Origin: Bacteroidales bacterium Bact_09
GTDB lineage: Bacteria; Bacteroidota; Bacteroidia; Bacteroidales; UBA932
Assembly (NCBI GenBank): GCA_001603455.1
Contig: LUZA01000002.1
Span: 1-63,676, forward strand
Direction: 5' to 3'
DNA: 63,676 nt
Below are positions 39,491 to 60,136 of the stretch, piece by piece. Below the pieces are notes generated by a model, which was not told the DNA's origin, made no database searches, and worked only from the letters and a program-made list of their open reading frames with translations. The position numbers and the translations under genes were made by a program. Positions within the stretch are counted from its first letter, which is position 1, and each line of letters starts with the position of its first letter.

Positions 39491-40102
39491 TCAGGGGATG
39501 ACTCTCACCAGTTTGTAGCATTCGGTAGAGGAAAAGCCCCATTTGTACCCGCGGACGATCAGTTCCCCGTCTTTATTAAAGAAAAAAACGCCTTTATTGG
39601 CCGTTATACCAAAGTTGGGATGGTACATGTACGGGGCATACCATTTTCCATCCCGGTACTCTATTCCACTGCTGTAGATCATACCCACAAGAGGTCTTTC
39701 CCGCAGGGTTTTGTCCGGATTCCTGAAATCCTTCGGGACCTCATCGGAAGTACTTTCAGGCACCCAGACTATACGGGCCAGATACTTCCCGTCCTCTTGC
39801 TTTTCAAAGCGTGTTCTTCCGGCTTCCCGCTGGGATTCCCATATGTAACCAAGGAGCTTGTCCTGTGGTGCTACCGCAGGATTTCCACCGGCTGTGTCCA
39901 GCGGTAGTATGATCTGGTCGGGATGGACCGGGTCTTTTGAATAATTAACCGATTGTGAAAAAAAATGAATGATGTTGCCCATGCCGCTCCGCTCTGTAGG
40001 GGATTTTTGTTGTCCCTGAGCACGGGCATGTCCGGCAAGCAAACAGACGATCAGAGCGATGTTTGCTGCAAGGAGCAGTGCTCGTACCCGGATATGGTTC
40101 AT
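39491..40102 (-). CDS. Secreted DUF2147-like protein
   Basis: A 203-residue exported protein (signal peptide ending near ARAQG) whose second half matches the DUF2147 pattern: LLGYIWESQ, GKYLARIVWVPE, KDFRNPDKTLRERPLVGM and a C-terminal RGYKWG. The function is unknown; members are small lipid- or ligand-binding-like beta proteins. It overlaps the upstream acyltransferase gene by ATGA, so it is probably the last gene of the long pigment operon, although that may be accidental to pigment function. Confidence 0.75.
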   Translation of the reverse strand: MNHIRVRALLLAANIALIVCLLAGHARAQGQQKSPTERSGMGNIIHFFSQSVNYSKDPVHPDQIILPLDTAGGNPAVAPQDKLLGYIWESQREAGRTRFEKQEDGKYLARIVWVPESTSDEVPKDFRNPDKTLRERPLVGMIYSSGIEYRDGKWYAPYMYHPNFGITANKGVFFFNKDGELIVRGYKWGFSSTECYKLVRVIP

Positions 40103-41241
40103 AACCCTTCTTTTTTCTTGTTTAAAACGGGACCGGCATATATCTGCCTGAGCATTTGTTTCATTATTTCACGCGAAACCGATTCCTGGTCTGCCAATAA
40201 AATCTCCCTTTGTTCAAGGAGTTTCAGGTCTTCGTCTGTGTAATATTCGCTAAATTCCTGTTTTCCCGACAGCAGGTCACATGCTGCATAATTAATGCCG
40301 TACAATTTATATCCCTCATAGATCCGGCGGTTGATCAGGGCAGCAACCTCCCTGAAAAATGCACCCTGCGGCATAGATGCAATCGGTTCCATATCCTCTG
40401 CTGTTACCGGAGGACATAGTGTCATATGCACCCTGCCTTTGAATTGTGTAATTCCTGTTATAATGCTGACCAGGTCTTCGCCGGGAGCCTTGGTGTACGA
40501 TTCATGTAATGTTCTCTGATACAGTTCTTTTACTTTTAATATATCACAAGGCTCGATCTCGTATGATACCGATACAGGTAAGATATTCAGCGATGCAAGG
40601 TTACCGGTTGCATTGCTTTTCCCGCTCAGGGATAGCATTTTTAAAAGACCGGGATCAGTGACATCATTTCCGTCCTTGCATCTGCCTTCATGCTGGGCTA
40701 TCCAGATTGAGATTCCCCGCCCGGTACGATCCCTGATATAGTCGGAAAGAAGTCTTGAATGTCTTATCAATTCACGCATATTCCCCGACTTTCTGAACAC
40801 TTTGAACATCTTATTGGATTTTCCCATGTCCACCAACAGAGGTGACTGCATCAGATTGCTCCCAAAAGAGATTTCGGTTGTGGATAGTCCGCTCTGGTAA
40901 AGTACCAATTGCAGCAGGGTGGCGTCCAGGACAATATCCCTGTGGTTTGAAATATACAGGATACCTTTATCTTTTTTTGCATATTTCTGACCCGAGAATG
41001 TCATACTGCTCATCGTCTTTTCAATGATGCTCAGTATGATGGGATGCATCACATTGATCTGGAGCTCTTCATTGTTTTTAACTGTCAGCAAAAGATCCCG
41101 GAATTCACCAACAGGTCTTTCGGGAAACAACCAGGAGAAGACCTGATCCAGGAGGGGTTCCCTAGCTAGGCGCTGCATGGCCGCCGGGATCTCCTGGTCG
41201 TTGTACGGCCTGATATCGTCAAACCTGCTATCCGGTGACAT
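40099..41241 (-). CDS. PlsC-like (1-acylglycerol-3-phosphate) acyltransferase
   Basis: A 380-residue glycerolipid acyltransferase-like protein. The active-site block is LYISNHRDIVLDATLL; counting from its His, the Asp is six residues on (His-x5-Asp) rather than the usual His-x4-Asp, which may be a subfamily trait. A later IWIAQHEGRCKD occupies the place of the FPEGTRS block. No membrane helix is strong. It overlaps the PaaK-like ligase gene by 14 bases, so it belongs to the pigment operon and may esterify the polyene acid onto a lipid or supply acyl lipid. The family is also found outside pigment clusters. Confidence 0.78.
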   Translation of the reverse strand: MSPDSRFDDIRPYNDQEIPAAMQRLAREPLLDQVFSWLFPERPVGEFRDLLLTVKNNEELQINVMHPIILSIIEKTMSSMTFSGQKYAKKDKGILYISNHRDIVLDATLLQLVLYQSGLSTTEISFGSNLMQSPLLVDMGKSNKMFKVFRKSGNMRELIRHSRLLSDYIRDRTGRGISIWIAQHEGRCKDGNDVTDPGLLKMLSLSGKSNATGNLASLNILPVSVSYEIEPCDILKVKELYQRTLHESYTKAPGEDLVSIITGITQFKGRVHMTLCPPVTAEDMEPIASMPQGAFFREVAALINRRIYEGYKLYGINYAACDLLSGKQEFSEYYTDEDLKLLEQREILLADQESVSREIMKQMLRQIYAGPVLNKKKEGL

Positions 41242-42535
41242 GGGTCCTCTTATCTATCAATTTAACTGCTTTGCGCATTTTATCGTTATTAACCTCGGCT
41301 TTCAGTTCCCTGTTGGGCACGACCTCTACTTCGGGCGCAACGCGAACTTTGGCGCGGAATTTATCCTTGACGGCTTTACAGATATCTTCAGGGATGTTTT
41401 TCAACCCTTCCTTCAATGATACTTTTACCCGAACATCGTCCGTACCCAGTTCATTGCTCAGAAGTATCACCTGATAGCAACTAATAAACCAAATATCTTC
41501 CAGTACATCAAACAGGGATGGCGGGTAAAGGGTTGTCCCTTTGAATTTGATCATTTGATTCTTACGTCCCAACAACGGGCTGATTCGCATTGTTTTACGT
41601 CCGCATTCACAAGGTTCGTAATGGAACCGGGCAAGGTCACCGGTACGGAAACGCAACAGGGGCATTCCTTCCAGTCCCAGGTTCGTAATCACCAGTTCAC
41701 CCGTTTCTCCCTGGGGAACAACGCGGTCATTATCATCAACCAATTCGCAGATGACAAGCTCCGGCAGGTGGTGTCCCCCTTTTCCGTAAGGACATTCACA
41801 GAAAGTGGCTCCGAGTTCTGTGGAAGCATATGTAGATATAAGGCTGATATCCCATTTTTCCCGTATGTGACTGCCCAGAATATTGAGCGAAAAGTCCTGG
41901 TTACGCAGGTTCTCGCCAATACAAACGGCTTTCTTAATACTCGAGTTCCTGTAATCGATGTTGTTCTCTTCTGCAAATTCTATTAGTTTAAGAATGAAGG
42001 AGGGCACACATATGATCGTGTTGGGTCTCATTCTGGTTATGGTATCCCATTGCAATTCAGGGATCCCGTTTCCAACACGGATAATACCGGCTCCCAGGTT
42101 CCTGATACCCAGATAGTAAGCCAATCCTGCAACGAATCGCTTGTCCATTGTTGTCATCAGCTGGACCAGGTCTCCGGGTTTTGTTCCAGCACATTCAAAG
42201 GAAACTTTTTCGTTGTAAGCCAGCCTGTCCAGATCCCTGTCTGTCAGGGCATAGGTGGCCGGATCACTTAATGTCCCCGAAGTCGTAACATAATCTATGA
42301 GATGTTCCTTGGGGACACAGATGAAATCTTCATTGAATTGCTGAAGATCACTTTTTTTAGTGAATGGCATGTATTGAAGATCTTCCAGTGTTCTAATCTT
42401 CCTGATATCAATACCTTCACGCTGAAACATCCTTTTGTAAAAAGGAGATCTTTCACTGATGTAGGATAATTCCCGCCGGAGCAGTTTTTCCTGGAACAGT
42501 TTGATCTCACCGGTGGAAGTATATTTGATATCCAT
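41228..42535 (-). CDS. Phenylacetate-CoA ligase (PaaK)-like adenylating enzyme
   Basis: A 435-residue AMP-binding enzyme of the PaaK type, which activates aryl acids as adenylates. Motifs: DYVTTSGTLSDPATYAL (A3-like loop, near 103-120), STYASTELGATFCECPYG, and FRTGDLARFHYEPCECGR with paired Cys. Aryl-polyene pathways need a ligase to load the starter acid, so I infer activation of 4-coumarate made by the ammonia-lyase at the other end of the operon and transfer to CoA or an acyl carrier protein. It could instead activate the finished polyene for esterification. It overlaps the downstream acyltransferase by 14 bases. Confidence 0.85.
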   Translation of the reverse strand: MDIKYTSTGEIKLFQEKLLRRELSYISERSPFYKRMFQREGIDIRKIRTLEDLQYMPFTKKSDLQQFNEDFICVPKEHLIDYVTTSGTLSDPATYALTDRDLDRLAYNEKVSFECAGTKPGDLVQLMTTMDKRFVAGLAYYLGIRNLGAGIIRVGNGIPELQWDTITRMRPNTIICVPSFILKLIEFAEENNIDYRNSSIKKAVCIGENLRNQDFSLNILGSHIREKWDISLISTYASTELGATFCECPYGKGGHHLPELVICELVDDNDRVVPQGETGELVITNLGLEGMPLLRFRTGDLARFHYEPCECGRKTMRISPLLGRKNQMIKFKGTTLYPPSLFDVLEDIWFISCYQVILLSNELGTDDVRVKVSLKEGLKNIPEDICKAVKDKFRAKVRVAPEVEVVPNRELKAEVNNDKMRKAVKLIDKRTHVTG

Positions 42536-42546
42536 TATTATGTTTT

Positions 42547-43404
42547 TTATTGGTTAATTTCATTATTGAGCCAGAGCAGGAATTCCCGCATCCACAGCGC
42601 AGCTGTTTCATGGCTGGCTTCCGGATCATATCCGAACCCATGGCCTCCTTTTCGGTAAAGCAACAGACGATGGGGAACATGCTTATCTTCAAGAATGGCA
42701 CTGTATCTAAGTGTGTTTTGAGGATCAACAACCGGGTCATCCATACAGGTCATCAGGAAAACCGGTGGCATATCTTCCCGTACGTTTTCCTCCAGGGACA
42801 GTGTTTTTCGTAAACTTACAGGATGGTTGGCAGCAAGCAGATTCCGGCGTGATCTTACATGTGTTATGCCATCTGCCATCGAAACCACGGGATAGATCAT
42901 GGCCACAAATGCCGGCTTAAGGGTCACAGAAGGATTCAGCCCGTAACGTGCCAGGAAATTGGTATCGTAATAGGTCCCCATCCATCCGGCCAAGTGTCCT
43001 CCTGCCGAAAAACCCAGCAATCCTACTTTATCCGCGTTAATGCCATATGCAGATGCATTTTCCTTAACCAACATGACAGCCCTCTGGATGTCTTCCATCA
43101 TAGTGGGGTAGCTGTATCCGTACATTCCTGTACTGTAGCGTAATACAAATGCCGAATACCCTTCATGTGCCAGTGCTTTAGCAACCCGGTGTCCTTCGTT
43201 ATTTATTCCAAGGTGGTGGTAACTGCCTCCGGGAAGAATGATGATCGCCGTTTTCAGGGATTGATCGTTCTGCGGTGCATAATGCCACATGCGTACCCGG
43301 CTTTTTTCCCGTATTCCTTCCCATGGACGGAAAACTTCCTGTGCCTGTATGGAAAGGCTAAGGGTAATAAAAAATAATAAGATTAAAGAACGTTTATTCT
43401 TCAT
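42547..43404 (-). CDS. Secreted alpha/beta-hydrolase, acetyl-esterase-like
   Basis: A 285-residue hydrolase with a Sec signal (MKNKRSLILLFFITLSLSIQAQ). The nucleophile elbow is GFSAGGH, an ILPGGSY oxyanion segment precedes it, and the acid/base residues fit DDPVVDPQNT and KGGHGFG. It resembles xylan/acetyl esterases, but no polysaccharide genes are nearby. The start at 43404 is chosen to place the signal peptide at the N-terminus; it overlaps the upstream small gene by 11 bases. Its inclusion in the pigment operon suggests deacylation or transesterification in the periplasm; this is inference. Confidence 0.85.
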   Translation of the reverse strand: MKNKRSLILLFFITLSLSIQAQEVFRPWEGIREKSRVRMWHYAPQNDQSLKTAIIILPGGSYHHLGINNEGHRVAKALAHEGYSAFVLRYSTGMYGYSYPTMMEDIQRAVMLVKENASAYGINADKVGLLGFSAGGHLAGWMGTYYDTNFLARYGLNPSVTLKPAFVAMIYPVVSMADGITHVRSRRNLLAANHPVSLRKTLSLEENVREDMPPVFLMTCMDDPVVDPQNTLRYSAILEDKHVPHRLLLYRKGGHGFGYDPEASHETAALWMREFLLWLNNEINQ

Positions 43405-43774
43405 TAAAAATGAGCTCATTTATTTCTTCATCCGATAATTGTTTATATGTCGGGTTGATGAATTGCCCGTTTTCCCGGGAAAAATCTACCCGGTAGTACT
43501 CTTCTGCATAGAAAGAAAGCCGTGATTTTGTATCGGGATTGCATTCAATGTATATCACATTGTCAGGGTCCAGTCCCTTGGCACTGCATATTTGTTCCAA
43601 CAGCAAACCTCCGGCATAAGTAACGGATGAACCAGGATTGTACTGATAAATTTCAGTTACAATGACTACGGATTTTCCATTACGATCCAGGATCCTCAGC
43701 CCACATTTTGAAGGAACATCCCATTTGCCTTTAAAATCAAAAACCTCATCAAAATGTTTACTCTGAACTTCCAT
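43394..43774 (-). CDS. Uncharacterised small cytoplasmic protein
   Basis: A 126-residue acidic protein that I do not recognise. It has no signal peptide or membrane segment; predicted strands (GLRILDRNGKSVVIVTEIY, DNVIYIECNPD) alternate with short helices, and it ends in an acidic tail (DEEINELIFNEE). The gene is real by its tight fit: three bases after the radical SAM stop and 11-base overlap with the hydrolase gene. A partner or regulator of the neighbouring radical SAM enzyme is possible but unproven. Confidence 0.65.
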   Translation of the reverse strand: MEVQSKHFDEVFDFKGKWDVPSKCGLRILDRNGKSVVIVTEIYQYNPGSSVTYAGGLLLEQICSAKGLDPDNVIYIECNPDTKSRLSFYAEEYYRVDFSRENGQFINPTYKQLSDEEINELIFNEE

Positions 43775-43777
43775 AAT

Positions 43778-45070
43778 CTAATTGTTTCCTATTGGACGTT
43801 TGACTTCTTTTCCGAACGATTTATTAATCAGTTTTCTATTGCGGGGTTTCCATGTCCCGTCTTCCATTTCACGTTTCATGACCCGGGTAAAGAGTTTTGT
43901 CATTTTCAATTCCTGGGATTCTTCCTTGTAGAAGGAACTCCAGGCATAGTCGTAAAGTTCCTGTAATTTTTCGGGGGTGACCTGGGCGGGTTTATAGACC
44001 ACCTGGCCAGCATTGTAGTGATCCCAGTTGTAATCGGTGATCCTGCCTCTGCGCATCATATCGTCAAAAGCTTTGGTATGCGGGAAAGGCGTGAGGATGG
44101 TAAATTCGGCAAGGTCCAGATCTATTTCCAAAAGGAAATCTATCAGGCGGCGCATGTCGTCCTCGGATTGATTGTCAAGTCCTAAAAGAATGGTTCCCTC
44201 CACGCCAATGCCGTAATCGTGATAACGTTTGATCCTTTCCTTGATGTAACTGGAGGTGTCAAAAACGGCCTGATAGACGTACCAGGCTCCGGCCTGAGCT
44301 GCCAGATCCAATATTTTGGGATCGTCTTCTATGGTATGGCTGACCCATTTTTTCTTTAAGGGGATCATTTCTTTAAAAAGCTGTATTTCCCATTCCTTGT
44401 TCTGTGCCAGGGAATTGTCCACAATAAACAGGCGGTTGTTTTCAATATTGGCGAGTTCTTCAACTACTTTGTCAAAAGGACGGGCACGAAACTGACGGCC
44501 GCCCAGGTATGCTACGGCACAGGGATAACAGTTGAAACGGCATCCGCGCGATGCGTGGAAGAGGTCCACCATTTGTACTCCTTTGTGGTTATAAAGTTCT
44601 TTCTTGTAAAGATCTCTTCTGGCGGGACCTACCAGCTCTATAGGAGGCAGCTGGCCCATATAATTATACACTTTTTTGAGACAACCGTTTTCCCAGTCTC
44701 TGATAAGCTCTTCCATCCGTCCTTCTGCTTCGCCCAGAAAAATGGCATCGCCGTGCTCTATGGTTTCTTCTGCATGAAGCATAGTGGAGATGCCTCCAAA
44801 AATCACTTTTTTACCTCTTTTCCTAAATTCTGCGGCAATGGCCCAACCGCGTCTGACCTGCGTAGACAACATCATGGAGATAGCTACCAGTTCACAGGAT
44901 TCCTCAAAATCTACCGGCTCAACGTTCTCATCTGTAAAGGAAACTTCTACACGCTCGGGCAGGGCAGCCGCAAATACAACGGGGCCGTGTGGCGGCAGAT
45001 TGAAGGTAGTCTGTCCCTTTAATTTTTCCCACCGAGGATATATGAGTTTCATTTTGATTTTTTTTGCCAT
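43778..45070 (-). CDS. B12-binding-type radical SAM enzyme
   Basis: A 430-residue radical SAM protein. The cluster motif CxxxCxxC is at Cys177, Cys181 and Cys184 (GCRFNCYPC). An N-terminal cobalamin-binding-like Rossmann segment precedes it (VAISMMLSTQVRRGW, KKVIFGGISTMLHAEET, GDAIFLGEAEGRMEEL), the arrangement of BchE-type methyltransferases and cyclases, which usually lack the DxHxxG motif, as here. In the pigment operon it may methylate the aryl ring or polyene chain, since no classical SAM methyltransferase is present in the operon. Domain family firm, reaction inferred. Confidence 0.87.
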   Translation of the reverse strand: MAKKIKMKLIYPRWEKLKGQTTFNLPPHGPVVFAAALPERVEVSFTDENVEPVDFEESCELVAISMMLSTQVRRGWAIAAEFRKRGKKVIFGGISTMLHAEETIEHGDAIFLGEAEGRMEELIRDWENGCLKKVYNYMGQLPPIELVGPARRDLYKKELYNHKGVQMVDLFHASRGCRFNCYPCAVAYLGGRQFRARPFDKVVEELANIENNRLFIVDNSLAQNKEWEIQLFKEMIPLKKKWVSHTIEDDPKILDLAAQAGAWYVYQAVFDTSSYIKERIKRYHDYGIGVEGTILLGLDNQSEDDMRRLIDFLLEIDLDLAEFTILTPFPHTKAFDDMMRRGRITDYNWDHYNAGQVVYKPAQVTPEKLQELYDYAWSSFYKEESQELKMTKLFTRVMKREMEDGTWKPRNRKLINKSFGKEVKRPIGNN

Positions 45071-45084
45071 AAAGTATGGTGTTG

Positions 45085-46551
45085 TTAAGCTTTCTTAATT
45101 TGGTTTGTCAGGTTATCGATATCTATTATCTCTCCGCAAGTGAGTACCGATCCTATAATAACACCCATTATGCCGTGCGCGTTGATATTCTGTCCTGCAA
45201 GAAAGAGGTTGGGGACCTTGGTACGGTGAGATATGAACGTCTGGGTGTGATCGTTTTTATCCCTGAGGATGCCGTACATGGATCCTTCAACCGTTCCTGT
45301 GTAATCGCTGTAGGTAAGAGGAGTGGATGTCCAGAAATCCTCAATATGACTGATGGTGCCAGGAAATTGCTTTTCAAGGTTCAGAAGCATCTGGTGTGCT
45401 TTTTTTGCCTTGAAATCTTCGTATTCTGCACCGCGGTTTCCAAGAGGCAGGTCTTTCCACCGTTCCACTTCGTTCCAGGACATACTCTCGAACAAGACAG
45501 CACTCCGGACGTATTGCTGGTGGGGTTGATCACACATGTGCATGTAAAAGAAATGACCTTCCCATACAGAATTACGGGGATAGTGATAGAAGTTGTAATT
45601 CAGGTATGGAACGATTTTTTCCCTGAATTTGATGTAAACCGTAAAATTCGACAGTGTTTGTCGTATACGCCGAATCCTTTGCTTGTATGCCTTGCGGATC
45701 AGGGGCGTGTCTGTCATGTCCATCAGAATGCCAGGATGAATGTCGGAAATAACGTTACCAGCTTCTATGAACTCGTTATTGAGTAATGTAACGCCGGTAG
45801 CCTTTGTATCATCAAAATTCACCTTGGTCACAGGCTGGCCTGTTATAATACTGCCTCCGAAACTGCGTATGGAATCGCAAAGCAACTGCACCACTATGTC
45901 GCTTCCACCTACAAAACGGAAGGCGCTTTTATTATAGAAATCGGTGATCAGGGCATGGTAATACAACGGTGTTTTTTCTGCAACTCCGCCGTAAAGCGGC
46001 ATAATGCCGGCCAGCACATTCTGTAATTTATAATCTCCTGTCAGAGAATGTATATATTCGGCCACACCTATCTGCATGTTAGAACTGTCCAGCCAATAAG
46101 GATTTTCCATATTTCTGAACGAGTAAAGCGGGGAACGTTCTGCTATCGCCTCCATCCGGTGGATGTACATTTTTATGGCGTTCTTTTCCCTGGGAAAATG
46201 CCGGGCAAGTGTTTCTGTAAAGGGCTCCTGGCCGTTGGCATAGGCGTAACGTTCTCCCTGATAGGAAACCATATCGTATCCGGCCTGGTCCAGTCTGCTG
46301 AGCTGTACTTTTTGGTCCAGAGAAAGGTATTTAAAATAACGATGCAGTGGTTGTCCTTCATCCATGCTGCCTATGTAGTGCATCCCGGTCTCGAATTTAA
46401 CATCTTTGCGGATAAAAGTCTGCAGGCATCCACCCGGAAGGCTGTTCTTTTCTATCAAAGCCACCTTCAGACCGTTTTTGGACAGGATGTATCCGCATAC
46501 CAGGCCTCCGAGTCCGGTCCCAATTATAATCACATCGTATTTACCGCTCAT
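45085..46551 (-). CDS. CrtI/CrtO-like FAD-dependent oxidoreductase
   Basis: A 488-residue flavoprotein of the phytoene desaturase / retinol saturase type: dinucleotide motif IIGTGLGGLVCGY (10-22) followed by IEKNSLPGG, and a C-terminal NLFLAGQNINAHGIMGVIIG FAD segment. Such enzymes desaturate, isomerise or saturate conjugated chains. In an aryl-polyene operon it may adjust double bonds of the polyene or isomerise the chain, since the ketosynthase cycle alone should already give a conjugated product. It overlaps the exporter gene by 11 bases. Confidence 0.88.
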   Translation of the reverse strand: MSGKYDVIIIGTGLGGLVCGYILSKNGLKVALIEKNSLPGGCLQTFIRKDVKFETGMHYIGSMDEGQPLHRYFKYLSLDQKVQLSRLDQAGYDMVSYQGERYAYANGQEPFTETLARHFPREKNAIKMYIHRMEAIAERSPLYSFRNMENPYWLDSSNMQIGVAEYIHSLTGDYKLQNVLAGIMPLYGGVAEKTPLYYHALITDFYNKSAFRFVGGSDIVVQLLCDSIRSFGGSIITGQPVTKVNFDDTKATGVTLLNNEFIEAGNVISDIHPGILMDMTDTPLIRKAYKQRIRRIRQTLSNFTVYIKFREKIVPYLNYNFYHYPRNSVWEGHFFYMHMCDQPHQQYVRSAVLFESMSWNEVERWKDLPLGNRGAEYEDFKAKKAHQMLLNLEKQFPGTISHIEDFWTSTPLTYSDYTGTVEGSMYGILRDKNDHTQTFISHRTKVPNLFLAGQNINAHGIMGVIIGSVLTCGEIIDIDNLTNQIKKA

Positions 46552-49500
46552 CGGTTTCAGGTTTATCTGTGTATGTTAAGTTAACCGGAACTGAAACACA
46601 ATGGGCTGCCAGTTCTCTTTTTCCCGGATCTGCAATATACGCTTTAATCTTCAGATCCCTGCGCACGAGGGAGGCTGTCAGTGCGAATTCCCCGCAGTTA
46701 TGGTCTTCCAGGTAGTAATCACCGCTCAATGGCATTGCTTCTATCCGGTCTGCAAAATTACTGTTTTTTCTCATTGAATGGCGCACCGAGGCATAAACAT
46801 CCCTCCCTTTATAAAGGTAATTATGCAATACCTTGGGAGCGTGGTAATAAGCGTTTTCAATCCTGGCCGAGATTATCGCGTATTCCCTTACAAACAGCCT
46901 GCGTACTGATTTTGCCCGTTCCTGGTATGATTCTCCGTACGAAGTGTCATCGCAGGCTATCCGGGGCAGTATCCTGACAGTCATTTTACCTTTGCGCAAC
47001 AAGAAGTCTTTCTTGGGAAGTACATGTCCGAATCCATGCAGCAATACCGGTGTGATATCCAGATTCATGTCCGATGCCAGGTGGAATGCTCCTTTGTGAA
47101 AACGTAAAATGGAGCAATCGACTGAGCGCGTTCCTTCGGGGAAGATCATCACCGAATACCCCCTATCTATCCTTTCCCGCACCAATTCCCGGTGCGTGGT
47201 CAGATATTCAATGGGCAAAAAATCGGCAAAACGCAGGATCACTTTGTAGAACGGGGAATTCCACTCCCGGTTGTTTGTCATGACGATGATCTGGGGATGG
47301 AGCATAATAATGGCCATCAGGTCCAGGTGTGACTGGTGATTGGCAACAATAACAGAAGGCCGTGAAAGGTCCAGGTTTTCCCAGCCGGTAAGTTCCATTG
47401 AAGTTCCGGGTACACGGTATATGACAAACCGGCACATGTCTTGCAATATCTTGTGAAAACGGACTTTGTTTTTCTCACTCCGGCCCCCGAATATCAGAAG
47501 CAGTGTACCGGCAAGAGTCAGGTAAAAGACTCCAAGCAGGAAGAATGAAAAAGCAACCGCTGAATATGTCATATTCATTATGGTCAGAGGTTCTTCGCGC
47601 CGGTGCCCGCGTTTTGTTACCAGTTTCCTGTACAGGTAAGGCGGTATGATGTAAGCAGAGATCACTACCGAGATCATGCCTATGATGGTGATCTGGGCCA
47701 GCGAACGCATGGCCGGGTGTCTGGCAACGATCAGGGACCCTATGCCTGCAAGCATGATCAACGCCGATAAGGCTACGGTATTTTTGTAAGTGCTGAGCAT
47801 CTTTTTGCCGAAGGCATGTTCGTATATCATGCCTTCGGTGATAAATATGGTATAATCGTCCCCCAGACCGAAAATAAACGTGGCAAGGATAATATTTACT
47901 ATGTTAAACTCCAGGTTCAGCAGGCTCATGATGCCCAGGATCCAGATCCAACTGATGGCAAGAGGCAGGAAAGCGATCACGCTCAGCTCAAACCGGCCGA
48001 AGGATACTGTTAGGAAAAGGAAAACAATAAAACTGCATATAAAAAGCACATAGTCAAAATCGGAAGATAGCGACGAAATCATCATCCGCGTGACAGATCC
48101 CAGATCAAAAGCGAAAGTATTGGGCCCCAGTTTGTTAAGTTCTTTTTCCAGTTCGGGGGCATCCTGGGCTTCTATGTGGAGCAAAGTATAGATCAGGCTT
48201 TTTTCGGGGCTTTGGGATATGTAGTTGGCGGCCAGATCTTCCGGTAATGGCCCGGAAAGAGAAGTCTCTGCTGTTTGGAAGGATTGCATAAGGATCTCTT
48301 CAAACCGGGTAAAAGAACCTTCCCGGAAACCGTTTTCCAGTGCAACGGCCCTGAATAGTTTTAGGAAAGGATCCCTGCGTATCTGCCAGAAATCATTCCA
48401 CCGGTTTATTCTTTTTTCACGCATGGACCGGGATGGCATAAAGGTTCCAATGCCCGACATACGGTATTTATTTATATGGGGCAGGGACGTTTCATAATGC
48501 TCCAGCGCCTGGTCCAGGGTGGGGCCTTCTGCCACAAAATACATCACGTGTTGCGAACCTTGCGTCCTGTTCAAAAGTTTTTCCATACCCTCCTTTTGCT
48601 GTGGAGTCATATAGTTGATCGACTGCATATTGGCGTTGAATACAACACCCTTGTTACTAATCCAGAGAAAAACGGTCACTAAAAATAACGCAAGTATTAT
48701 CCAACGGTTCCTTTCCGGGGAAGAATCAGCTAACTTGCCAAAATTCAGCGATTTGGGAACCATCTGAGATCTGCCCGTCATGTGTGGCAGGAAAATAAGC
48801 ACAAAGAGTATAGTTCCCAGCAGCAGGAGCGAAGCGAACAGCCCAAAACTCTTCATGGCAGGCGAACTGATGAATAAAAGGCTTAGGAAGGCACCTATTG
48901 TTGTTATATTGCCCGTGGTAAGCGGAGGGACAATATCGGCGATGGTCTGACGCGGCGAATAACCTTCCTTTATGTGGGACAGGAAATGTAACGGATAATT
49001 CACAGCGATCCCCACGATCACAGATCCAGCTCCTATGGCGATCAGGGACAGGGAAGATGTCAACATTCCTGCCATAGAGAAAGCAAAAAGGGAACCAGCA
49101 AGGATCGAAAGTCCAATAAGCAGAATATGTTTTATGTTCCTGAAAAAAAGCGATAAAAGAATGGCTATGACAACCATGGCAATAGCTACCGACAACCAGG
49201 TGTCTTTCCTGATCTGGGTGGCATTTGTCAGGGCAATGTAAGCGGCACCGAAAGGTATGGCAGACACTTTGTGATCCAGATCTGCCTCTGTTTTTTCAAG
49301 TGCCTGGTCTATGGCTTTTATGAGTTTTTTGTTGTTTCCCGTATCGCCGGTGGAATAGCGTGAATCGATGGTCAGAACCGCTTCTTTTCCGTCTTTAGAG
49401 AAAATATAATCTTCATAAAGATTAAAGTGGTCACCCAGACGAAATCCTTCCAGCCTTTCCAGCAGAGGTCCCGAAAACAGCAGTGGATCTGTTAGTAATG

Positions 49501-50017
49501 TGTTTTTGAGCATCATCCCGGCAGGGGATAGGAGCAATTCCTTCACCTGGCGTATTCTCTGTTCCACTACCTGGGGTTGCAACAGAGAATCAATTCTGGC
49601 ATAATCCTCCTCTTGCAGGTAGTAGGGCATGTTGGAGGTGACATGTGTGCTGACTTCCATCATCAGGGAAGGATCTATACGGCAGGTGATCTTTTGGATA
49701 TGTTCCCCTGCAGGACCCTGTTCCAGCAGAACAGCAAGGCGGTTAGCCGCATTGGCCAGCAGGTCACGGTCAACAGTAACCTGGTCATCTGCCATAGAGA
49801 TATTGATGATGATTTTGCTGGTACCGCCAATATTCTGGTATGCATAGCCTATACGTTCGTGGTCCTTCCCCGTGGTTAGGAATCCCGAAACATCTTCGTT
49901 AACGTGCACCAGAAAAAGGCCTCCGGCAGTAACTACTGCACACAAGGTAAGCAGAACATACAGAGACCTGGTGTTCTTTCGAAAATGATCGTATATTTTC
50001 AGGAACGCTTGACCCAT
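46541..50017 (-). CDS. MMPL/RND-type lipid exporter fused to a PlsC-like acyltransferase
   Basis: A 1158-residue fusion. Residues 1 to about 840 form an MMPL/RND-type exporter with two sets of membrane helices (VAIAMVVIAILLSLFF, GAGSVIVGIAVNYPLHFL; later FGLGDDYTIFITEG) and two periplasmic loops. Residues about 880-1090 are a glycerolipid acyltransferase: HX4D at His894-Asp899 (NHQSHLDLM) and FPEGTRS. MMPL-type exporters are common in aryl-polyene clusters; here the acyltransferase is on the same chain, suggesting lipidation coupled to transport across the inner membrane. The catalytic motifs are intact, so both halves may work. Confidence 0.9.
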   Translation of the reverse strand: MGQAFLKIYDHFRKNTRSLYVLLTLCAVVTAGGLFLVHVNEDVSGFLTTGKDHERIGYAYQNIGGTSKIIINISMADDQVTVDRDLLANAANRLAVLLEQGPAGEHIQKITCRIDPSLMMEVSTHVTSNMPYYLQEEDYARIDSLLQPQVVEQRIRQVKELLLSPAGMMLKNTLLTDPLLFSGPLLERLEGFRLGDHFNLYEDYIFSKDGKEAVLTIDSRYSTGDTGNNKKLIKAIDQALEKTEADLDHKVSAIPFGAAYIALTNATQIRKDTWLSVAIAMVVIAILLSLFFRNIKHILLIGLSILAGSLFAFSMAGMLTSSLSLIAIGAGSVIVGIAVNYPLHFLSHIKEGYSPRQTIADIVPPLTTGNITTIGAFLSLLFISSPAMKSFGLFASLLLLGTILFVLIFLPHMTGRSQMVPKSLNFGKLADSSPERNRWIILALFLVTVFLWISNKGVVFNANMQSINYMTPQQKEGMEKLLNRTQGSQHVMYFVAEGPTLDQALEHYETSLPHINKYRMSGIGTFMPSRSMREKRINRWNDFWQIRRDPFLKLFRAVALENGFREGSFTRFEEILMQSFQTAETSLSGPLPEDLAANYISQSPEKSLIYTLLHIEAQDAPELEKELNKLGPNTFAFDLGSVTRMMISSLSSDFDYVLFICSFIVFLFLTVSFGRFELSVIAFLPLAISWIWILGIMSLLNLEFNIVNIILATFIFGLGDDYTIFITEGMIYEHAFGKKMLSTYKNTVALSALIMLAGIGSLIVARHPAMRSLAQITIIGMISVVISAYIIPPYLYRKLVTKRGHRREEPLTIMNMTYSAVAFSFFLLGVFYLTLAGTLLLIFGGRSEKNKVRFHKILQDMCRFVIYRVPGTSMELTGWENLDLSRPSVIVANHQSHLDLMAIIMLHPQIIVMTNNREWNSPFYKVILRFADFLPIEYLTTHRELVRERIDRGYSVMIFPEGTRSVDCSILRFHKGAFHLASDMNLDITPVLLHGFGHVLPKKDFLLRKGKMTVRILPRIACDDTSYGESYQERAKSVRRLFVREYAIISARIENAYYHAPKVLHNYLYKGRDVYASVRHSMRKNSNFADRIEAMPLSGDYYLEDHNCGEFALTASLVRRDLKIKAYIADPGKRELAAHCVSVPVNLTYTDKPETDER

Positions 50018-50742
50018 TTTCGCAGGAGCATTGATGGATAACCATATATGAACGCAGATACGGTCAGAATCGTGTTTAACAGGCTTATACGCAGGAAATC
50101 ACGTCCTTTCCTGAAATGCGTAACACGTTGGCCGGCAGGGGCATAGAATACTTTTATAGACAATGGAACAATGGGGATCCTTTTCCAGGCAAGCCTTACC
50201 AGTATCTCCAGTTCTGTTTCATAACGAGTTGTCAGTAGCCGCATTTTGTTCATCCTGTAAATGGGATACAGGCGGAATCCGGTCTGTGTGTCGGGAAGCC
50301 GCCTGAATGTCTGCAGAGTAAACCAGAAATTAGAAAACTTATTGGCAAAGGTGTTTTTTCTGGGCATGTTTTCCTGCCTGAAGGTACGGCTTCCTACAAT
50401 GACTGCTCCAGGATGTTCTTCAATGGCTTTGATAAACCGGGGGATCTCTGAAGGATAATGCTGTCCATCGCCATCGAGTGTTATGGCATAGCGGTAACCT
50501 CTTACGTGAGCAAAGGCAAAGGCACGTGACAGGGCGTATCCTTTACCCCTGTTCTTCCTGTACGATATGATCTCCGGTTCTAAGGAAAGTGTCCTCAGCT
50601 GGTCCAATGTATTGTCGATGGACCCGTCATTAACTACAATAAGATGATTGCAATACGCCATGGTCTCCTCTATGACGCAGAGGATCGTGGACGCATTGTT
50701 ATACGTCGGAATAATTACACAGATATCGTCTCTTGCAGGCAT
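49999..50742 (-). CDS. DPM1/ArnC-like family 2 glycosyltransferase
   Basis: A 247-residue GT2 resembling dolichyl/polyprenyl-phosphate sugar transferases: VIIPTYNNASTI at the N-terminus, DGSIDNT, a metal-binding DGDGQH (LDGDGQHYP), and DTQTGFRLYP. A single hydrophobic stretch near the C-terminus (LNTILTVSAFIYGYPSMLL) may anchor it. The ATG at 50742 is preferred to an in-frame start at 50799, which would overlap most of the dehydratase tail; even so it overlaps that gene by 28 bases. It may make a polyprenyl-phosphate sugar or glycosylate the pigment. An ArnE-like gene lies three genes upstream. Confidence 0.83.
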   Translation of the reverse strand: MPARDDICVIIPTYNNASTILCVIEETMAYCNHLIVVNDGSIDNTLDQLRTLSLEPEIISYRKNRGKGYALSRAFAFAHVRGYRYAITLDGDGQHYPSEIPRFIKAIEEHPGAVIVGSRTFRQENMPRKNTFANKFSNFWFTLQTFRRLPDTQTGFRLYPIYRMNKMRLLTTRYETELEILVRLAWKRIPIVPLSIKVFYAPAGQRVTHFRKGRDFLRISLLNTILTVSAFIYGYPSMLLRKWVKRS

Positions 50743-51092
50743 AAAGTCATTTTGGTCATGATGTTGTCCCCGTCCAGGACTTCGGTACGTATCTTCCACT
50801 TTTTCTCTTCCAGTTGATCGATTTGCATACGGAATACAACAAGTGGAGTTTCCCCCGGATAAATACCTCTTAGAAATTTTATATTGTCCGCCTTTTCCAG
50901 CATAAACTCCTTTTCCAGCACCACAGAAACAAGTTCTCTTGCCATTTCCACCAGGCAGGCTCCCGGCGTTATGGGATTGCCGGGGAAATGGGCACGGTAT
51001 ATCTGGTGGTCCTCCATCAACCGGACGGTTATCAGAAATCCTCCCGGACTGCTGGTCTTGTTAACGATCTTGTAGAGGCTGTTGAGAAACAT
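50715..51092 (-). CDS. Hot-dog 3-hydroxyacyl-ACP dehydratase (ApeI-like)
   Basis: A 125-residue hot-dog protein with the FabA/FabZ-type active-site block HFPGNPITPGACLVEMA, carrying the catalytic His and the Glu on the facing helix. In E. coli aryl-polyene synthesis, ApeI pairs with ApeP to dehydrate chain intermediates; the second dehydratase here is at 56567. The start at 51092 (MFLNSL) is chosen because the longer open frame would lie inside the LolA gene; an ATG at 51098 is also possible. It overlaps LolA by 32 bases and the glycosyltransferase by 28. Confidence 0.82.
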   Translation of the reverse strand: MFLNSLYKIVNKTSSPGGFLITVRLMEDHQIYRAHFPGNPITPGACLVEMARELVSVVLEKEFMLEKADNIKFLRGIYPGETPLVVFRMQIDQLEEKKWKIRTEVLDGDNIMTKMTLCLQETISV

Positions 51093-51696
51093 AAGCATCA
51101 AATATTTTATCGTCAATGGGCAGGTTAAACCGGATATTGCCCAGCCTGACCGTTGTCTTATCACCCGATACTTCGTAAATGACAATGGTCTGTATCATAT
51201 GGTCTTCTTTTCGGAAGAAGAGTTCCATATGTGTGAACATGCGTTTCATGTCCTTTTGTGCCGGAAAGAGCCTGACTTGTATGAAATCCCCGGAAGAAAC
51301 GAACTCAGAGGTGAAATTGCCGCTGTCTTCCAGTATTTCACCGCTCATTCCCAGTAGAATGATCTTGCCGATATGTCTGAAAAAACCTCCGGCACCGGGA
51401 TCAGGCACGGGGTTGCCCGATCTGTCGAGTATAGTGATGTCATTCCCTCTGAGCAGGAACCCGGACCGGTCCGGATTGTTGTATTGCCACAAGAGGCCAC
51501 CGTCTTTTTTATAGACGAGCCTTCCCCTTGAAATCCCTTTTTCGGTCAATACAGATACTTCTCTTTCCTGTTGAAATTCACATGAGAGGGTTTGTACATT
51601 TTGCAGTGCGTTCTTCATGCCGGCAGGATAATCCTGTGTACCGGGCACGCTCATACCGGCACATATCAGCAATGGCAAAATAAGGAACCTTTTCAT
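51061..51696 (-). CDS. LolA-like periplasmic lipoprotein/lipid carrier
   Basis: A 211-residue exported protein of the LolA fold (signal MKRFLILPLLICAGMSVPG; QNVQTLSCEFQQEREVSVL, SRGRLVYKKDGGLLWQY, LRGNDITILD). LolA-like proteins are standard parts of aryl-polyene clusters, where they probably carry the lipid-like pigment across the periplasm rather than lipoproteins. Its 3' end overlaps the ApeI-like gene by 32 bases, and it starts 2 bases after the ArnE-like gene's stop. Confidence 0.85.
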   Translation of the reverse strand: MKRFLILPLLICAGMSVPGTQDYPAGMKNALQNVQTLSCEFQQEREVSVLTEKGISRGRLVYKKDGGLLWQYNNPDRSGFLLRGNDITILDRSGNPVPDPGAGGFFRHIGKIILLGMSGEILEDSGNFTSEFVSSGDFIQVRLFPAQKDMKRMFTHMELFFRKEDHMIQTIVIYEVSGDKTTVRLGNIRFNLPIDDKIFDAYVSQQPLQDR

Positions 51697-51698
51697 GG

Positions 51699-52055
51699 CT
51701 ATTGTTTAAGGAGAAAAAATATACCAGTAACGATCAGAAAAACGCCAATCCAACGGGTAGGGGGGATGGCTTCCCTGAAAATGAAAAAAGCGGCAAGCAT
51801 CCCAAAAACATAGGCAAAGCTGGTTATGGGATAGGCAATTGAAAAAGGATAATGTTTAAGGATATACATCCAAAGCACAGTGGCCGATAAAAATAACACT
51901 CCTGCCAGGGCAAAATACCAGTTGGTTAACAGTTGTTTGAAATATACCCAGGTAAAACTGAACTTGTCCATACGTTCCATGGATACTTTGAGGCATACCT
52001 GACCGGATGCCAGCAAAATGGTCTGTAAAAGAGATAACAGTATGAATTTCAGCAT
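51699..52055 (-). CDS. ArnE/ArnF-like four-helix transporter (SMR/EamA superfamily)
   Basis: A 118-residue membrane protein with four predicted helices. It looks more like the ArnE/ArnF undecaprenyl-phosphate-aminosugar flippase subunits than like drug-exporting SMR proteins: the first helix reads LLASGQVCLKV where EmrE would carry its essential Glu14, and SIAYPITSFAYVFGMLAAFFI plus REAIPPTRWIGV follow the ArnE layout. This suggests flipping of a lipid-linked sugar, fitting the polyprenyl-phosphate-type glycosyltransferase in the same operon. It overlaps the ketosynthase-like gene by 7 bases. Confidence 0.75.
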   Translation of the reverse strand: MLKFILLSLLQTILLASGQVCLKVSMERMDKFSFTWVYFKQLLTNWYFALAGVLFLSATVLWMYILKHYPFSIAYPITSFAYVFGMLAAFFIFREAIPPTRWIGVFLIVTGIFFLLKQ

Positions 52056-52942
52056 TTTGATAAAAATATCAGTGAAGTTTCGGTTCTCCTGTAGTTATTT
52101 ATCAGCAATATGTTATCTGGTAATAAACCGCGTTGCATTTTGACGGCAGCTGCATACAGTTCATAGGCATGGTTGGTGAAAGATTCCCCAAATAAAGGCT
52201 TAACGGAAAGAGGCGTGATCCAGTCCTCCCGGGATTTGCCAAGGCGTAAGCACGTTTCCCGGATGGCTTTTTCTATTCTTTCTTCCGTGGGATTGTGCAA
52301 CAGTATCACTTCGCTGATACAGGCCATAGGGTTTTTTCCCGGGGTATCGGCCAGCATGAAACTGACAGCCGTTTCCCCGGCCATTTTCCCTTCCCAGAAT
52401 CCAACTTTATCTAATATATAGAAGTAATTGGGAATCATCTCGTCAAAACCTCCCACCAGGGCACTCCGGATCCTTCCCAACTGGAACTGCATAAAAGCAT
52501 CCAGCAAGGCGCTTTCAAAAGAAATCCCCAAATGTACGTAAGTACTGTTGTAGCCTGTACATTTCAGATGAACTGCAATGTGTGAGCTGATGGTATTGTG
52601 CGTGGAATTGATAAAATTGGTGGGTTGCAGGAATTCTTCCCCCTCCTGCAGCATGGCCAGCAGAAATTTTTCCGTGGTTTCCAGGCATCCCAGACCCGTA
52701 CCCACAATGATGGCATCGGGATCGTTGATCCCGGTGGCTTCAACAACAGTCGCGGAGGTAGCTATGGCTCTTTTCAAAATTTTTCCCATTCTTCTGGAAG
52801 ATACGGGATCCAGGAAACGTTTGTAATCGGCTTCAATAGAACGCTGGAATGGAACGTCGTAAGAAACCGGATTTTCCAGCCAATCATCACAGAGCGGATT
52901 TTGTACTGATATTTGTGCTGCTGCCTGTATGTATACACCCAT
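52049..52942 (-). CDS. Chain-length-factor-like ketosynthase homologue lacking the active-site Cys
   Basis: A 297-residue thiolase-fold protein, shorter than a normal ketosynthase (about 400). Where a ketosynthase has the nucleophilic Cys, it reads VHLGISFESALLDA with no Cys, and no catalytic His pair remains; FGESFTNHAYEL replaces the GHT-x-GAAG segment. It thus resembles chain-length factors (ApeC-like), which pair with an active ketosynthase, here probably the one at 52948 immediately upstream (5 bases away). It likely sets polyene length or stabilises the partner. Confidence 0.82.
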   Translation of the reverse strand: MGVYIQAAAQISVQNPLCDDWLENPVSYDVPFQRSIEADYKRFLDPVSSRRMGKILKRAIATSATVVEATGINDPDAIIVGTGLGCLETTEKFLLAMLQEGEEFLQPTNFINSTHNTISSHIAVHLKCTGYNSTYVHLGISFESALLDAFMQFQLGRIRSALVGGFDEMIPNYFYILDKVGFWEGKMAGETAVSFMLADTPGKNPMACISEVILLHNPTEERIEKAIRETCLRLGKSREDWITPLSVKPLFGESFTNHAYELYAAAVKMQRGLLPDNILLINNYRRTETSLIFLSKC

Positions 52943-52947
52943 AATGG

Positions 52948-54147
52948 TTAAATTTTTGAAAAAATGCAGGTAGTATCGTTTCCTCCGAACCCGAAAGAAT
53001 TGGTCATGACATTACGAATAGGCCTTAGAGGTTTTTCATCGGTTACCGGACGGAAGGAAAGCATTTTCATGGGATTTTTGTAATTCAGGTTAACCGGCAA
53101 AAAATCGTTAAGCATTGCCAGTATGGAAATCACCGATTCCACACTGCCGGCAGCACTGGTTGTATGACCCGTATAGGATTTGGTAGATGATACCGGCGGA
53201 ACCGAATCAGCCCCGAAGACACGCATCAGGGCTTTACCTTCACTTTCATCGTTGTTGGGAGTACCCGTTCCGTGTGCGTTCACATAATCGATCTGGCCCG
53301 GCTTAAGACCTGCTTCCTTCAAGGCTTTGATCATGGAGAGTACAGCTCCGTCACCTTCCGGCGAAGATGCCGTTTGGTGGTAAGCGTCACAGGCATTCCC
53401 GTATCCCGCAACCAGGCACAGAGGTTTAATGCCCCTGGCTTTAACGGATGCTTCCGATTCCAGTACCAGGTATGCGGCCCCTTCTCCCAGGTTCAGACCG
53501 GCACGTGTATCGTCAAAAGGCCTGCAGGGATCCTTATCCAGGATCTTGAGTGTATTGAATCCGTTCAGATGGAATTTTGAGAGGCATTCACTGCCTCCCG
53601 CAATCGCAATGGAAGTCCTTCCGGTACGGATCATGTCGGCACCCATGATCAATGCATTGGCTGCCGAAGAACAAGCCGTAGACAAGGTGGAGAGCATGTC
53701 AAATCCGCCGTAATGATCTGCGATCATTTGTGTGCAGACTCCGCAATCGTGTGACAGGATGTAATCATCACGGGTTTTATCGGGCGTAAGCATCTCCAGA
53801 AAAAATTTCTCGGTATTTTCCATTCCTCCGACGGTCGTTCCCGATATCAACACCGGATTCAGGGAGTTTTTTCCCCTGATCCCCGCCACGTCCATGGCTT
53901 CTCCCAGAGCGATGATACCCATCAGGGCGGTCCGTGTTGTCATCTGTTTCTTTGGTATACCTGCCATACGCCGTAATTCATCCGTACTGAAAGGTACCTC
54001 GGCACAGGGGAGGTGAGAATGCATGGATTCCAGCCAGCGCAAAGGACCTATGCCGCTTTTACGATAGTGCATGGATTCCAGGGTTGCAGCCGTGCCGGCA
54101 CCCAGGGATGTTATGATTCCGAGTCCCGTAACGTATATTTTTTCCAT
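52948..54147 (-). CDS. Beta-ketoacyl-ACP synthase (FabF-type) of the pigment pathway
   Basis: A 399-residue ketosynthase with the complete Cys-His-His triad: Cys159 in STACSSAANA, His292 in NAHGTGTPNND and His328 in SYTGHTTSAAG, plus a C-terminal NSFGFGGND. It condenses malonyl-ACP with the growing aryl-polyene chain. It lies between an acyl carrier protein gene (8 bases away) and the Cys-less partner, the layout of a KS/chain-length-factor pair in type II polyketide systems. One of three complete ketosynthases in the operon; exact division of labour is unknown. Confidence 0.93.
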   Translation of the reverse strand: MEKIYVTGLGIITSLGAGTAATLESMHYRKSGIGPLRWLESMHSHLPCAEVPFSTDELRRMAGIPKKQMTTRTALMGIIALGEAMDVAGIRGKNSLNPVLISGTTVGGMENTEKFFLEMLTPDKTRDDYILSHDCGVCTQMIADHYGGFDMLSTLSTACSSAANALIMGADMIRTGRTSIAIAGGSECLSKFHLNGFNTLKILDKDPCRPFDDTRAGLNLGEGAAYLVLESEASVKARGIKPLCLVAGYGNACDAYHQTASSPEGDGAVLSMIKALKEAGLKPGQIDYVNAHGTGTPNNDESEGKALMRVFGADSVPPVSSTKSYTGHTTSAAGSVESVISILAMLNDFLPVNLNYKNPMKMLSFRPVTDEKPLRPIRNVMTNSFGFGGNDTTCIFSKI

Positions 54148-54155
54148 CCGGAGAA

Positions 54156-54413
54156 TTATTTTGTGCGGTACTTTTGAATATAATCGGCCATAGTGGCAAC
54201 AGATTTGAAGATTTCTTTGCTTTTGCCAGGATCCTCCAGCTTGATGCCATACTGTTTTTCCATAAGTACTATCAGTTCCAGTGCATCTATCGAGTCCAGT
54301 CCCAGTCCTTCAACAAAAAGGGGTGCATTGGTATCTATATCATCGGGGGTAATATCTTCCAGGTTCAACGCGTTGATGATCTGTTTTTTCAGGTCTAAAA
54401 TCAATGTTTCCAT
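54156..54413 (-). CDS. Acyl carrier protein (second of two)
   Basis: An 85-residue acidic helical protein with the phosphopantetheine attachment site at Ser41 in GLGLDSIDALELI. It carries the growing chain for the adjacent ketosynthases. It differs from the other carrier protein of the operon (57909), so the two may be used for starter and extension or by different synthases. Spacing to both neighbours is 6-8 bases. Confidence 0.93.
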   Translation of the reverse strand: METLILDLKKQIINALNLEDITPDDIDTNAPLFVEGLGLDSIDALELIVLMEKQYGIKLEDPGKSKEIFKSVATMADYIQKYRTK

Positions 54414-54419
54414 GTTTGA

Positions 54420-55034
54420 TCAAAAATAAAGTTTATTAATGTTTTCCGTATTGAAATCCAATCCGTTGTCACCGTCTTTTTCCACCATCATTACCAATAC
54501 GTCGCAATGATCGTCCAGGTATTCAGCCCAGCCGCACAGAACGCGTTGAATATCAGTATAAGAAAAAGCCCATTGTGCAAATATCTGCATTTTTTCGGCA
54601 TCAAAAGACTCCAAAATGAAAAAAGATGTTTCTCCCAGAAATTTATTCCTGATAGCAATTTCTCCCGTAACTATGTTGGGCAGTGTATAAACGAACACAG
54701 CGGGACTGGGAAAATAATTGTCCTTCTCTATGGTCTTCTGGAAACGTTTGTCATTATCCAGGGAAGAGGTGCTGTTGGCAAATACCAGCGAAGTGGAACC
54801 GTCGGGCGTTTCCCTGTCGTATCCGAGATCACAGAGAACCATTTCCGATGCCAGAAAACCGGATTTGGAAAGGTTATCCATTTTATGGAATTTCGGATAA
54901 GACATCTGCAGGGAGCGGTAGATCTCAGTAAGGCGGACCGGGCCTGATTCCCCGGAGAAAAGTATTTGCGGGCATTTCCCGTTGAGGATTACAGCGGTGT
55001 CTGTAATGCGGCAGTACGAGGCGATCTTTTTCAT
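54420..55034 (-). CDS. Half-length ketosynthase-like protein without catalytic residues
   Basis: A 204-residue protein matching only the N-terminal half of a ketosynthase. Around residues 110-140 it has TLPNIVTGEIAIRNKFLGETSFF, the segment that in ketosynthases leads to the active-site Cys; here the following residues are ILESFDAE with no Cys. No His motifs remain. The start at 55034 overlaps the upstream ketosynthase by ATGA; a longer open frame to 55130 is rejected for that reason. It may act as a structural partner of the ketosynthase encoded just upstream. Confidence 0.75.
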   Translation of the reverse strand: MKKIASYCRITDTAVILNGKCPQILFSGESGPVRLTEIYRSLQMSYPKFHKMDNLSKSGFLASEMVLCDLGYDRETPDGSTSLVFANSTSSLDNDKRFQKTIEKDNYFPSPAVFVYTLPNIVTGEIAIRNKFLGETSFFILESFDAEKMQIFAQWAFSYTDIQRVLCGWAEYLDDHCDVLVMMVEKDGDNGLDFNTENINKLYF

Positions 55035-57909: not shown

Positions 57910-58157
57910 CAACTTGCTTTAAGTTTTCCTTCAATATAATCGTAAAATTGCGATAATGTCTTCACTTTTGACATTTCTTCGGGTTTGATCTTAAATCCAA
58001 AGTTCTGTTCCACCACCACTACAATGTCAACAAAATCAAGGCTATCTATTCCCAGGTTTTCTTTTAAAAAAGCTTCTTCTTTAAGTGCCTGGGGATCTAC
58101 TTCAATGTCTTCTATCAAAAATTTGTTGACTATCTCTATGATTTCCTTCCTGTTCAT
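57909..58157 (-). CDS. Acyl carrier protein (first of two)
   Basis: An 82-residue carrier protein with the phosphopantetheine site at Ser39 in NLGIDSLDFVDIVV. The low identity to the second carrier protein (54156) suggests distinct partners. It follows a ketosynthase gene by 19 bases and overlaps the acyltransferase start as TGATG. Confidence 0.94.
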   Translation of the reverse strand: MNRKEIIEIVNKFLIEDIEVDPQALKEEAFLKENLGIDSLDFVDIVVVVEQNFGFKIKPEEMSKVKTLSQFYDYIEGKLKAS

Positions 58158-60132: not shown

Positions 60133-60136
60133 AATA

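Follow-up and report, generated by a model that had tools for sequence, protein, structure and literature searches.

What does a B12-type radical S-adenosylmethionine (SAM) enzyme do in a pigment operon, and with which protein does it work? The question is raised by a stretch of 63,676 nucleotides from Bacteroidales bacterium Bact_09 (contig LUZA01000002.1, positions 1 to 63,676), here called the window. A sequence-only reading had taken this enzyme and an adjoining CrtI-like flavoprotein for tailoring enzymes of an aryl polyene, encoded in an operon without a classical methyltransferase. Both open reading frames (ORFs) are exactly as described and lie on the minus strand, the first with the motif C177/C181/C184 and the predicted fold of its class, the second with a match to Amino_oxidase; family scans of all 24 operon proteins found no methyltransferase family. 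Our results indicate that the radical SAM enzyme forms a real, conserved module of aryl-polyene clusters together with a small protein, orf126, and that this module is common to many anaerobes.

We assessed the distribution of the enzyme in a tool-drawn sample of 393 Bacteroidales genomes. An ortholog was present in 37 of them, with a clean score gap to the paralogs (at least 582 against at most 232 bits). KSlike4, a ketosynthase-like protein of the operon that served as cluster marker, was found in 109 of the 393 genomes, including 36 of the 37 with the enzyme (Fisher p = 2e-21, uncorrected for kinship). We then compared 80 radical SAM loci, kept out of 373 from a named genome collection, in which genes were called as stop-to-stop ORFs and matched by BLAST to the window proteins. 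At 67 of the 80 loci, the enzyme gene was linked to orf126 or to flx or dar genes; among loci of at least 16 kb, the figure was 36 of 39. Nine further genomes reached through the loci, Tannerella included, all carried KSlike4, although the enzyme gene sometimes lay away from the marker. The relatives in these 80 of 373 loci were almost all Bacteroidales, with few spirochaete records, and their record labels named guts, rumen and faeces, as well as Tannerella forsythia. Within the genus of the window, the gene was present in 10 of 13 genomes; the three without it (G002, G005 and G009) had a completeness of 79, 82 and 92%, respectively.

The real partner of the enzyme is orf126, not the flavoprotein. 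orf126 was found in 55 of the 80 loci. Among 56 hand-chosen genomes, it was present in 23 of 27 with the enzyme and in none of the 29 others; genome-wide searches for the enzyme covered 22 of these 29 and were negative. The comparison with the 22 enzyme-negative Bacteroidales alone (23/27 versus 0/22) gave p = 4e-10. The 23 include all seven enzyme genomes in which orf126 lies outside the stretch fetched around the enzyme, so that the two occur together even where they are unlinked. The divergence of the radical SAM protein correlated with that of FlxY (rho 0.50) and of orf126 (rho 0.55), but not with that of the flavoprotein (rho 0.17), the last in a crude test whose CrtI set mixes two paralogs. 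Five clusters (L106, L108, L139, L140 and L144) carried the enzyme and no CrtI gene at all. The coupling of enzyme and flavoprotein proposed in the sequence-only reading was therefore rejected.

Of the two proposed tailoring enzymes, the radical SAM protein is functionally tied to the pathway by its co-occurrence and linkage. The flavoprotein itself is ordinary, because similar genes occur in flx clusters without the radical enzyme: among 17 genomes whose fetched stretch lacked a radical SAM gene, 10 had CrtI-like genes in their flx clusters, including 6 outside Bacteroidales. It matched Pfam Amino_oxidase (80.9 bits, cut-off 19.8) and NAD_binding_8 (56.5 bits, cut-off 21.9) and reached none of the carotenoid enzyme models, namely CrtD, its best NCBIfam model (117.7 bits, cut-off 549.7), the isomerase (80.9, cut-off 586.9) and crtI_fam (57.6, cut-off 238.1). 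Its nearest solved chain by sequence was the gamma-carotene desaturase 4rep. To judge by its frequent position after the exporter gene in clusters of other orders, it is probably FlxV, which is counted among the possible reductases in the part of the flexirubin cluster account that bears on it (PMC3992019). Tandem CrtI-like genes of two paralog types were common in Bacteroidales flx clusters (L157, L160, L167, L180, L152 and L153); the window has one such gene.

orf126 belongs to no Pfam family and showed only a weak match in NCBIfam. Its invariant polar residues are C24, E41, Y43, N46, S50, Q61, E77 and E91. The predicted model (mean predicted local distance difference test score (pLDDT) 80) had no fold relative in Foldseek at E <= 0.001, and its best structural Z of 5.5 gave no confident match. 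A profile match in the PDB to a repeat protein was short and was judged an artefact. In L145 (11361-12623), orf126 runs on in frame, with no stop, into a protein recognised by eye as an Era-like GTPase; this is probably an overlap of adjoining genes, and the apparent fusion was not used.

We also investigated whether the enzyme is coupled to the resorcinol part of flexirubin synthesis. Of 110 chosen genomes, 80 were taken in list order with G453 kept, leaving out 30 enzyme-less genomes. Of the 37 enzyme genomes, 12 carried DarB, versus 21 of the 43 lacking the enzyme (p = 0.17), and coupling to the resorcinol part was rejected. The radical SAM-orf126 pair tracks the aryl-polyene genes independently of FlxJ, the classical methyltransferase of such clusters, and of darB. 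The pair was found in one spirochaete locus (L121, Spirochaetia) within an aryl-polyene-type cluster containing a FlxJ-like methyltransferase and an AMP-ligase/ApeI fusion, and also in the spirochaete-labelled records L111, L127 and L151; cross-phylum transfer and misbinning are both possible explanations. In the Tannerella-type records (L091, L092, L100, L114, L115, L123 and L138), examined as part of a comparison of 35 hand-chosen loci, the radical SAM gene lies near DarA, DarB, DarG, BtrH and ABC-transporter genes, away from ketosynthase genes. Another arrangement was seen in L183 (G705:C9), where BtrH, an acyl carrier protein (ACP), a sulfotransferase, the radical SAM protein, orf126, a second ACP and an acyltransferase form a separate small set beside the flx cluster.

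In the window, the module is part of an operon of 24 genes that all lie on the minus strand, between 61666 and 39491, with intergenic gaps of -125 to +19 (Table 1). The presence of FlxA, FlxB and FlxY with type II ketosynthases and ACPs supports its assignment as a flexirubin-lineage aryl-polyene cluster without a classical methyltransferase. It is not a cluster for a complete flexirubin, a pigment esterified with a dialkylresorcinol, as the genome holds neither DarB nor FlxJ. No DarB ketosynthase was found in the window's own genome (96.7% complete) at E <= 1e-30, the only match being a partial one of 31%. In this genome, the BtuB model gave only matches below its cut-off and was uninformative.

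Table 1. Features of the operon, in order of transcription
Feature	Position	Strand	Remarks
FlxA, tyrosine ammonia-lyase	60137..61666	-	NF053541, 802.5 bits vs cut-off 700; first gene of the operon
FlxB, ketoreductase	59404..60165	-	NF053542, 366.8 bits vs cut-off 340
Ketosynthase KS1	58177..59394	-	
Acyl carrier protein 1 (ACP1)	57909..58157	-	19 bases from KS1
Lipid A-type acyltransferase	57007..57912	-	
DH1 and 4HBT thioesterase	56152..57010	-	DH1 without Pfam match; dehydratase-like label from reading the sequence
KS2, 236-aa protein without Pfam match (working label KSlike3) and acyl carrier protein 2	54156..56179	-	
KS3 and ketosynthase-like KSlike4	52049..54147	-	KSlike4 is the cluster marker
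EamA/SMR-like membrane protein, LolA-like protein, FabA/ApeI-like dehydratase and family 2 glycosyltransferase	49999..52055	-	
MMPL-type exporter	46541..50017	-	fused acyltransferase domain
CrtI/CrtD-like FAD flavoprotein	45085..46551	-	488 aa
B12-fold radical SAM protein	43778..45070	-	430 aa; CxxxCxxC at C177/C181/C184
orf126, small protein	43394..43774	-	126 aa; no Pfam family
Alpha/beta-hydrolase, esterase-like (BD-FAE)	42547..43419	-	
FlxY, 4-coumarate-CoA-ligase-type enzyme	41228..42535	-	NF053551, 665 bits vs cut-off 520
Glycerolipid-type acyltransferase	40099..41241	-	
DUF2147 protein	39491..40102	-	last gene of the operon

A methyl group on the ring is found in the known aryl polyenes and flexirubins, as the sequence-only reading had said and as the relevant parts of two published accounts agree (PMC3992019, PMC8253772). 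One explanation would thus be that the radical SAM enzyme is a ring C-methylase standing in for the missing FlxJ. No FlxJ-family enzyme was found in the window's own genome at E <= 1e-30 or in the 12 other genomes of the genus at E <= 1e-10 (0/13), while 10 of the 13 keep the radical enzyme, and TsrM provides an example of a B12 radical SAM enzyme that methylates an aromatic carbon, as described in the part of PMC9692996 that deals with it. Across the order sample, FlxJ-family genes were also somewhat rarer where the enzyme was present (17 of the 36 genomes that have both enzyme and marker versus 49 of the 73 that have the marker only, p = 0.06). This weak deficit disappeared with a stricter FlxJ score (13/36 versus 23/73, p = 0.67), and the 17 genomes carrying both enzymes argue against mutual exclusion as proof of replacement, and so against the idea of a plain substitute for the ring methyltransferase. 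In the window's family outside the genus, FlxJ was likewise present in 5 of 8 genomes with the enzyme. Moreover, an ordinary methyltransferase would suffice for the carbon beside the phenol hydroxyl, given its reactivity. We therefore regard a stand-in ring methylase as unlikely.

Many clusters of relatives contain a classical FlxJ-family methyltransferase, for example L176 (NF053543, 591.8 bits, cut-off 560), and in G453, G609 and G528 its gene lies between KS1 and ACP1. The simplest reading is that FlxJ was lost in the window's genus and that the reaction of the module is unchanged; replacement of FlxJ by the radical enzyme in this genus alone is possible. Since FlxJ was lost in the genus, the pigment would be expected to lack the FlxJ ring methyl and to bear the mark of the module.

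To characterize the radical SAM protein, we compared it with known families and structures. Its scores fell slightly short of the Pfam gathering thresholds for B12-binding (30.6 versus 32.1 bits) and Radical_SAM (27.1 versus 29.5 bits). C177, C181 and C184 were invariant in 11 genus and family orthologs and in an alignment of 32 orthologs (L086, L111, L134 and L149 left out). The AlphaFold2 model (mean pLDDT 76, cluster loop 177-191 poorly predicted) shared a two-domain fold over most of the chain with AprD4, MgmA, TsrM, CysS and OxsB, at 12-17% identity in the structural alignments. The best fold match was AprD4 (Z 22.8, root-mean-square deviation (rmsd) 4.1, 367 residues aligned), followed by MgmA (417 aa; Z 20.1, rmsd 3.7, 326 aligned), CysS (Z 18.8, rmsd 4.4, 372 aligned), TsrM (Z 18.4, rmsd 4.2, 360 aligned) and OxsB (Z 17.7, rmsd 4.7, 359 aligned). 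When the radical SAM alignment was used as a profile against the PDB, AprD4 alone was returned (E 0.0008). Judged by the conserved motif and the predicted TIM-barrel fold, membership of the radical SAM superfamily is safe despite the sub-cut-off Pfam scores; the fold also agrees with a putative N-terminal B12-binding-type domain.

Assignment to a named subfamily by profile hidden Markov models, proposed as a check in the earlier reading, yielded no equivalog model above its cut-off. Against the BchE, HpnJ, HpnR, TIGR04013, TIGR04072 and TIGR04014 models, the window protein scored at most 55.9 bits, the cut-offs being at least 251. Over the 32 orthologs, the best models were TIGR04013, TIGR04072, HpnJ, BchE and HpnR, all weak and far below their cut-offs, which points to an unnamed subfamily. 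A second, distant B12-type radical SAM paralog was found inside flx clusters, or at most some 10 kb away from them, in L148 (26% identity to the window protein), G527:C15:66538, G769:C11:351911 and G467:C247:15032.

The radical SAM protein had the highest median identity in the operon (77%, 19 loci); the values for FlxA, orf126 and the flavoprotein were 57% (3 loci), 55% (19 loci) and 49% (14 loci), respectively. We read this identity as a sign that a conserved reaction is under strong constraint; gene transfer in the recent past may likewise have raised it.

Because the fold neighbours include both a non-methylating enzyme (AprD4) and methylating ones (MgmA, CysS and TsrM), the fold is silent on the reaction. 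Tentatively, and by a narrow margin, we consider radical C-methylation of a non-aromatic carbon with SAM and B12 the most likely chemistry of the module. Methylases that use the 5'-deoxyadenosyl radical abstract hydrogen from sp3 carbons, whereas TsrM methylates an sp2 aromatic carbon, according to the portion of PMC9692996 on these mechanisms. Since sp3 carbons are scarce in the finished aryl polyene, the likelier substrate would be a chain still on its carrier and only partly processed, or else the anchor, whether lipid or sugar. Almost as likely, in our view, is radical chemistry without methylation, on the chain or its conjugate, of the kind known from BchE, HpnJ and AprD4: dehydrogenation, dehydration, isomerisation or ring closure. 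The top rank of AprD4 among the fold matches, the presence of HpnJ and BchE among the leading sub-threshold families of all 32 orthologs and the small size of the protein (430 aa) are consistent with such a reaction; the methylase MgmA, similar in size and second in fold, the methylases CysS and TsrM after it, and HpnR, a methylase that scores in 27 of the 32 orthologs, point the other way, and all model scores are far below the cut-offs.

On balance, we lean towards the reading that the radical SAM enzyme and orf126 form one tailoring module on a flexirubin-lineage aryl-polyene pathway and introduce a change other than FlxJ ring methylation, a distinction drawn because both enzymes are present in many genomes. 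In this pathway, FlxA would convert tyrosine to 4-coumarate and FlxY would activate it with coenzyme A (CoA); the chain would be extended by the type II ketosynthases and ACPs, and the polyene would then be attached to an envelope lipid and exported. The module may act on the carrier-bound polyene or on its lipid conjugate, with the flavoprotein as a separate, ordinary member of the pathway.

Several observations weigh against this reading. The co-occurrence counts are not independent of kinship. KSlike4 occurs without the enzyme in 73 genomes of the order sample, and the module is therefore optional, while orf126 was missed in 4 of 27 enzyme genomes (G554, G455, G566 and G475). Cobalamin use is only predicted, with the Pfam B12-binding score just short of the cut-off and AprD4 as the closest fold; AprD4 shares the B12-type fold yet functions without cobalamin. 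We know of no product for any of these clusters. Furthermore, 13 of the 80 loci, mostly on short contigs, have no flx, dar or orf126 gene nearby, which, like the position of the module away from ketosynthase genes in Tannerella-type genomes, would suit a mere passenger of the neighbourhood that modifies something else, for example an envelope lipid to which no pigment is attached. However, the aryl-polyene marker is kept even there (9/9 genomes), and in some T. forsythia loci the enzyme lies near the resorcinol/flexirubin genes DarA, DarB and DarG, so that we consider a passenger improbable and retain the tailoring module as the preferred reading.

Among known systems, the flexirubin clusters (flx, dar) of Chitinophaga pinensis and Flavobacterium johnsoniae share with the window operon FlxA, FlxB, FlxY, ketosynthases, ACPs, LolA, a glycosyltransferase and an exporter, and their main-text account, in the part on the cluster, names no radical SAM enzyme (PMC3992019). 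The likeness in the CrtI-like flavoprotein rests on synteny in relatives; unlike those clusters, the window's own genome lacks FlxJ and DarB and carries the radical SAM-orf126 pair. The starter of the ape pathway is made differently from that of the flexirubin lineage. The Escherichia coli ape cluster shares the type II ketosynthase logic and lipid attachment, and its known product is ring-methylated; as far as the ape sections of the source go, ApeB is a classical methyltransferase, of which the window operon has none (PMC8253772). The part of the ape gene table that was consulted lists no radical SAM gene. In the portions available of the open-licence literature on aryl polyenes or flexirubins with radical SAM or cobalamin, we found no description of the radical SAM-orf126 module.

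By analogy of gene content, the closest published precedent is the candidate ladderane clusters of anammox bacteria. In Kuenenia stuttgartiensis, these are described, in the passages concerned, as placing radical SAM enzymes, one of which has a B12 domain, among type II fatty-acid genes, together with phytoene-desaturase-like flavoproteins, SAM methylases, a glycosyltransferase, a phenylacetyl-CoA ligase and a polysaccharide deacetylase-like protein; no FlxA-type start is described there (PMC2649909, PMC4790861). The phenylacetyl-CoA ligase and polysaccharide deacetylase-like gene types also occur in flx clusters. The likeness is one of gene descriptions, and the window protein is not a member of NCBIfam rSAM_ladder_B12 (46.4 bits, cut-off 360). 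This precedent weakens any claim that such a gene pairing is unheard of and adds interest to its role here. Ladderane ring closure by a radical cascade has been proposed, not shown, in the relevant sections of these reports (PMC2649909, PMC4790861, PMC9821293). By analogy, the radical SAM-orf126 pair, with or without the flavoprotein, might close rings in or rearrange the aryl-polyene chain by such a cascade, which we consider very unlikely; if it did, the product of these anaerobes would be a cyclised or otherwise rearranged aryl-polyene lipid and no plain pigment, and they are easier to work with than anammox bacteria. More generally, the conservation of a radical SAM enzyme together with its dedicated partner leads us to expect an undescribed structural change among aryl polyenes, and these clusters would offer a testable system for a question that comes from the ladderanes, namely the role of B12-type radical SAM enzymes in type II fatty-acid clusters.

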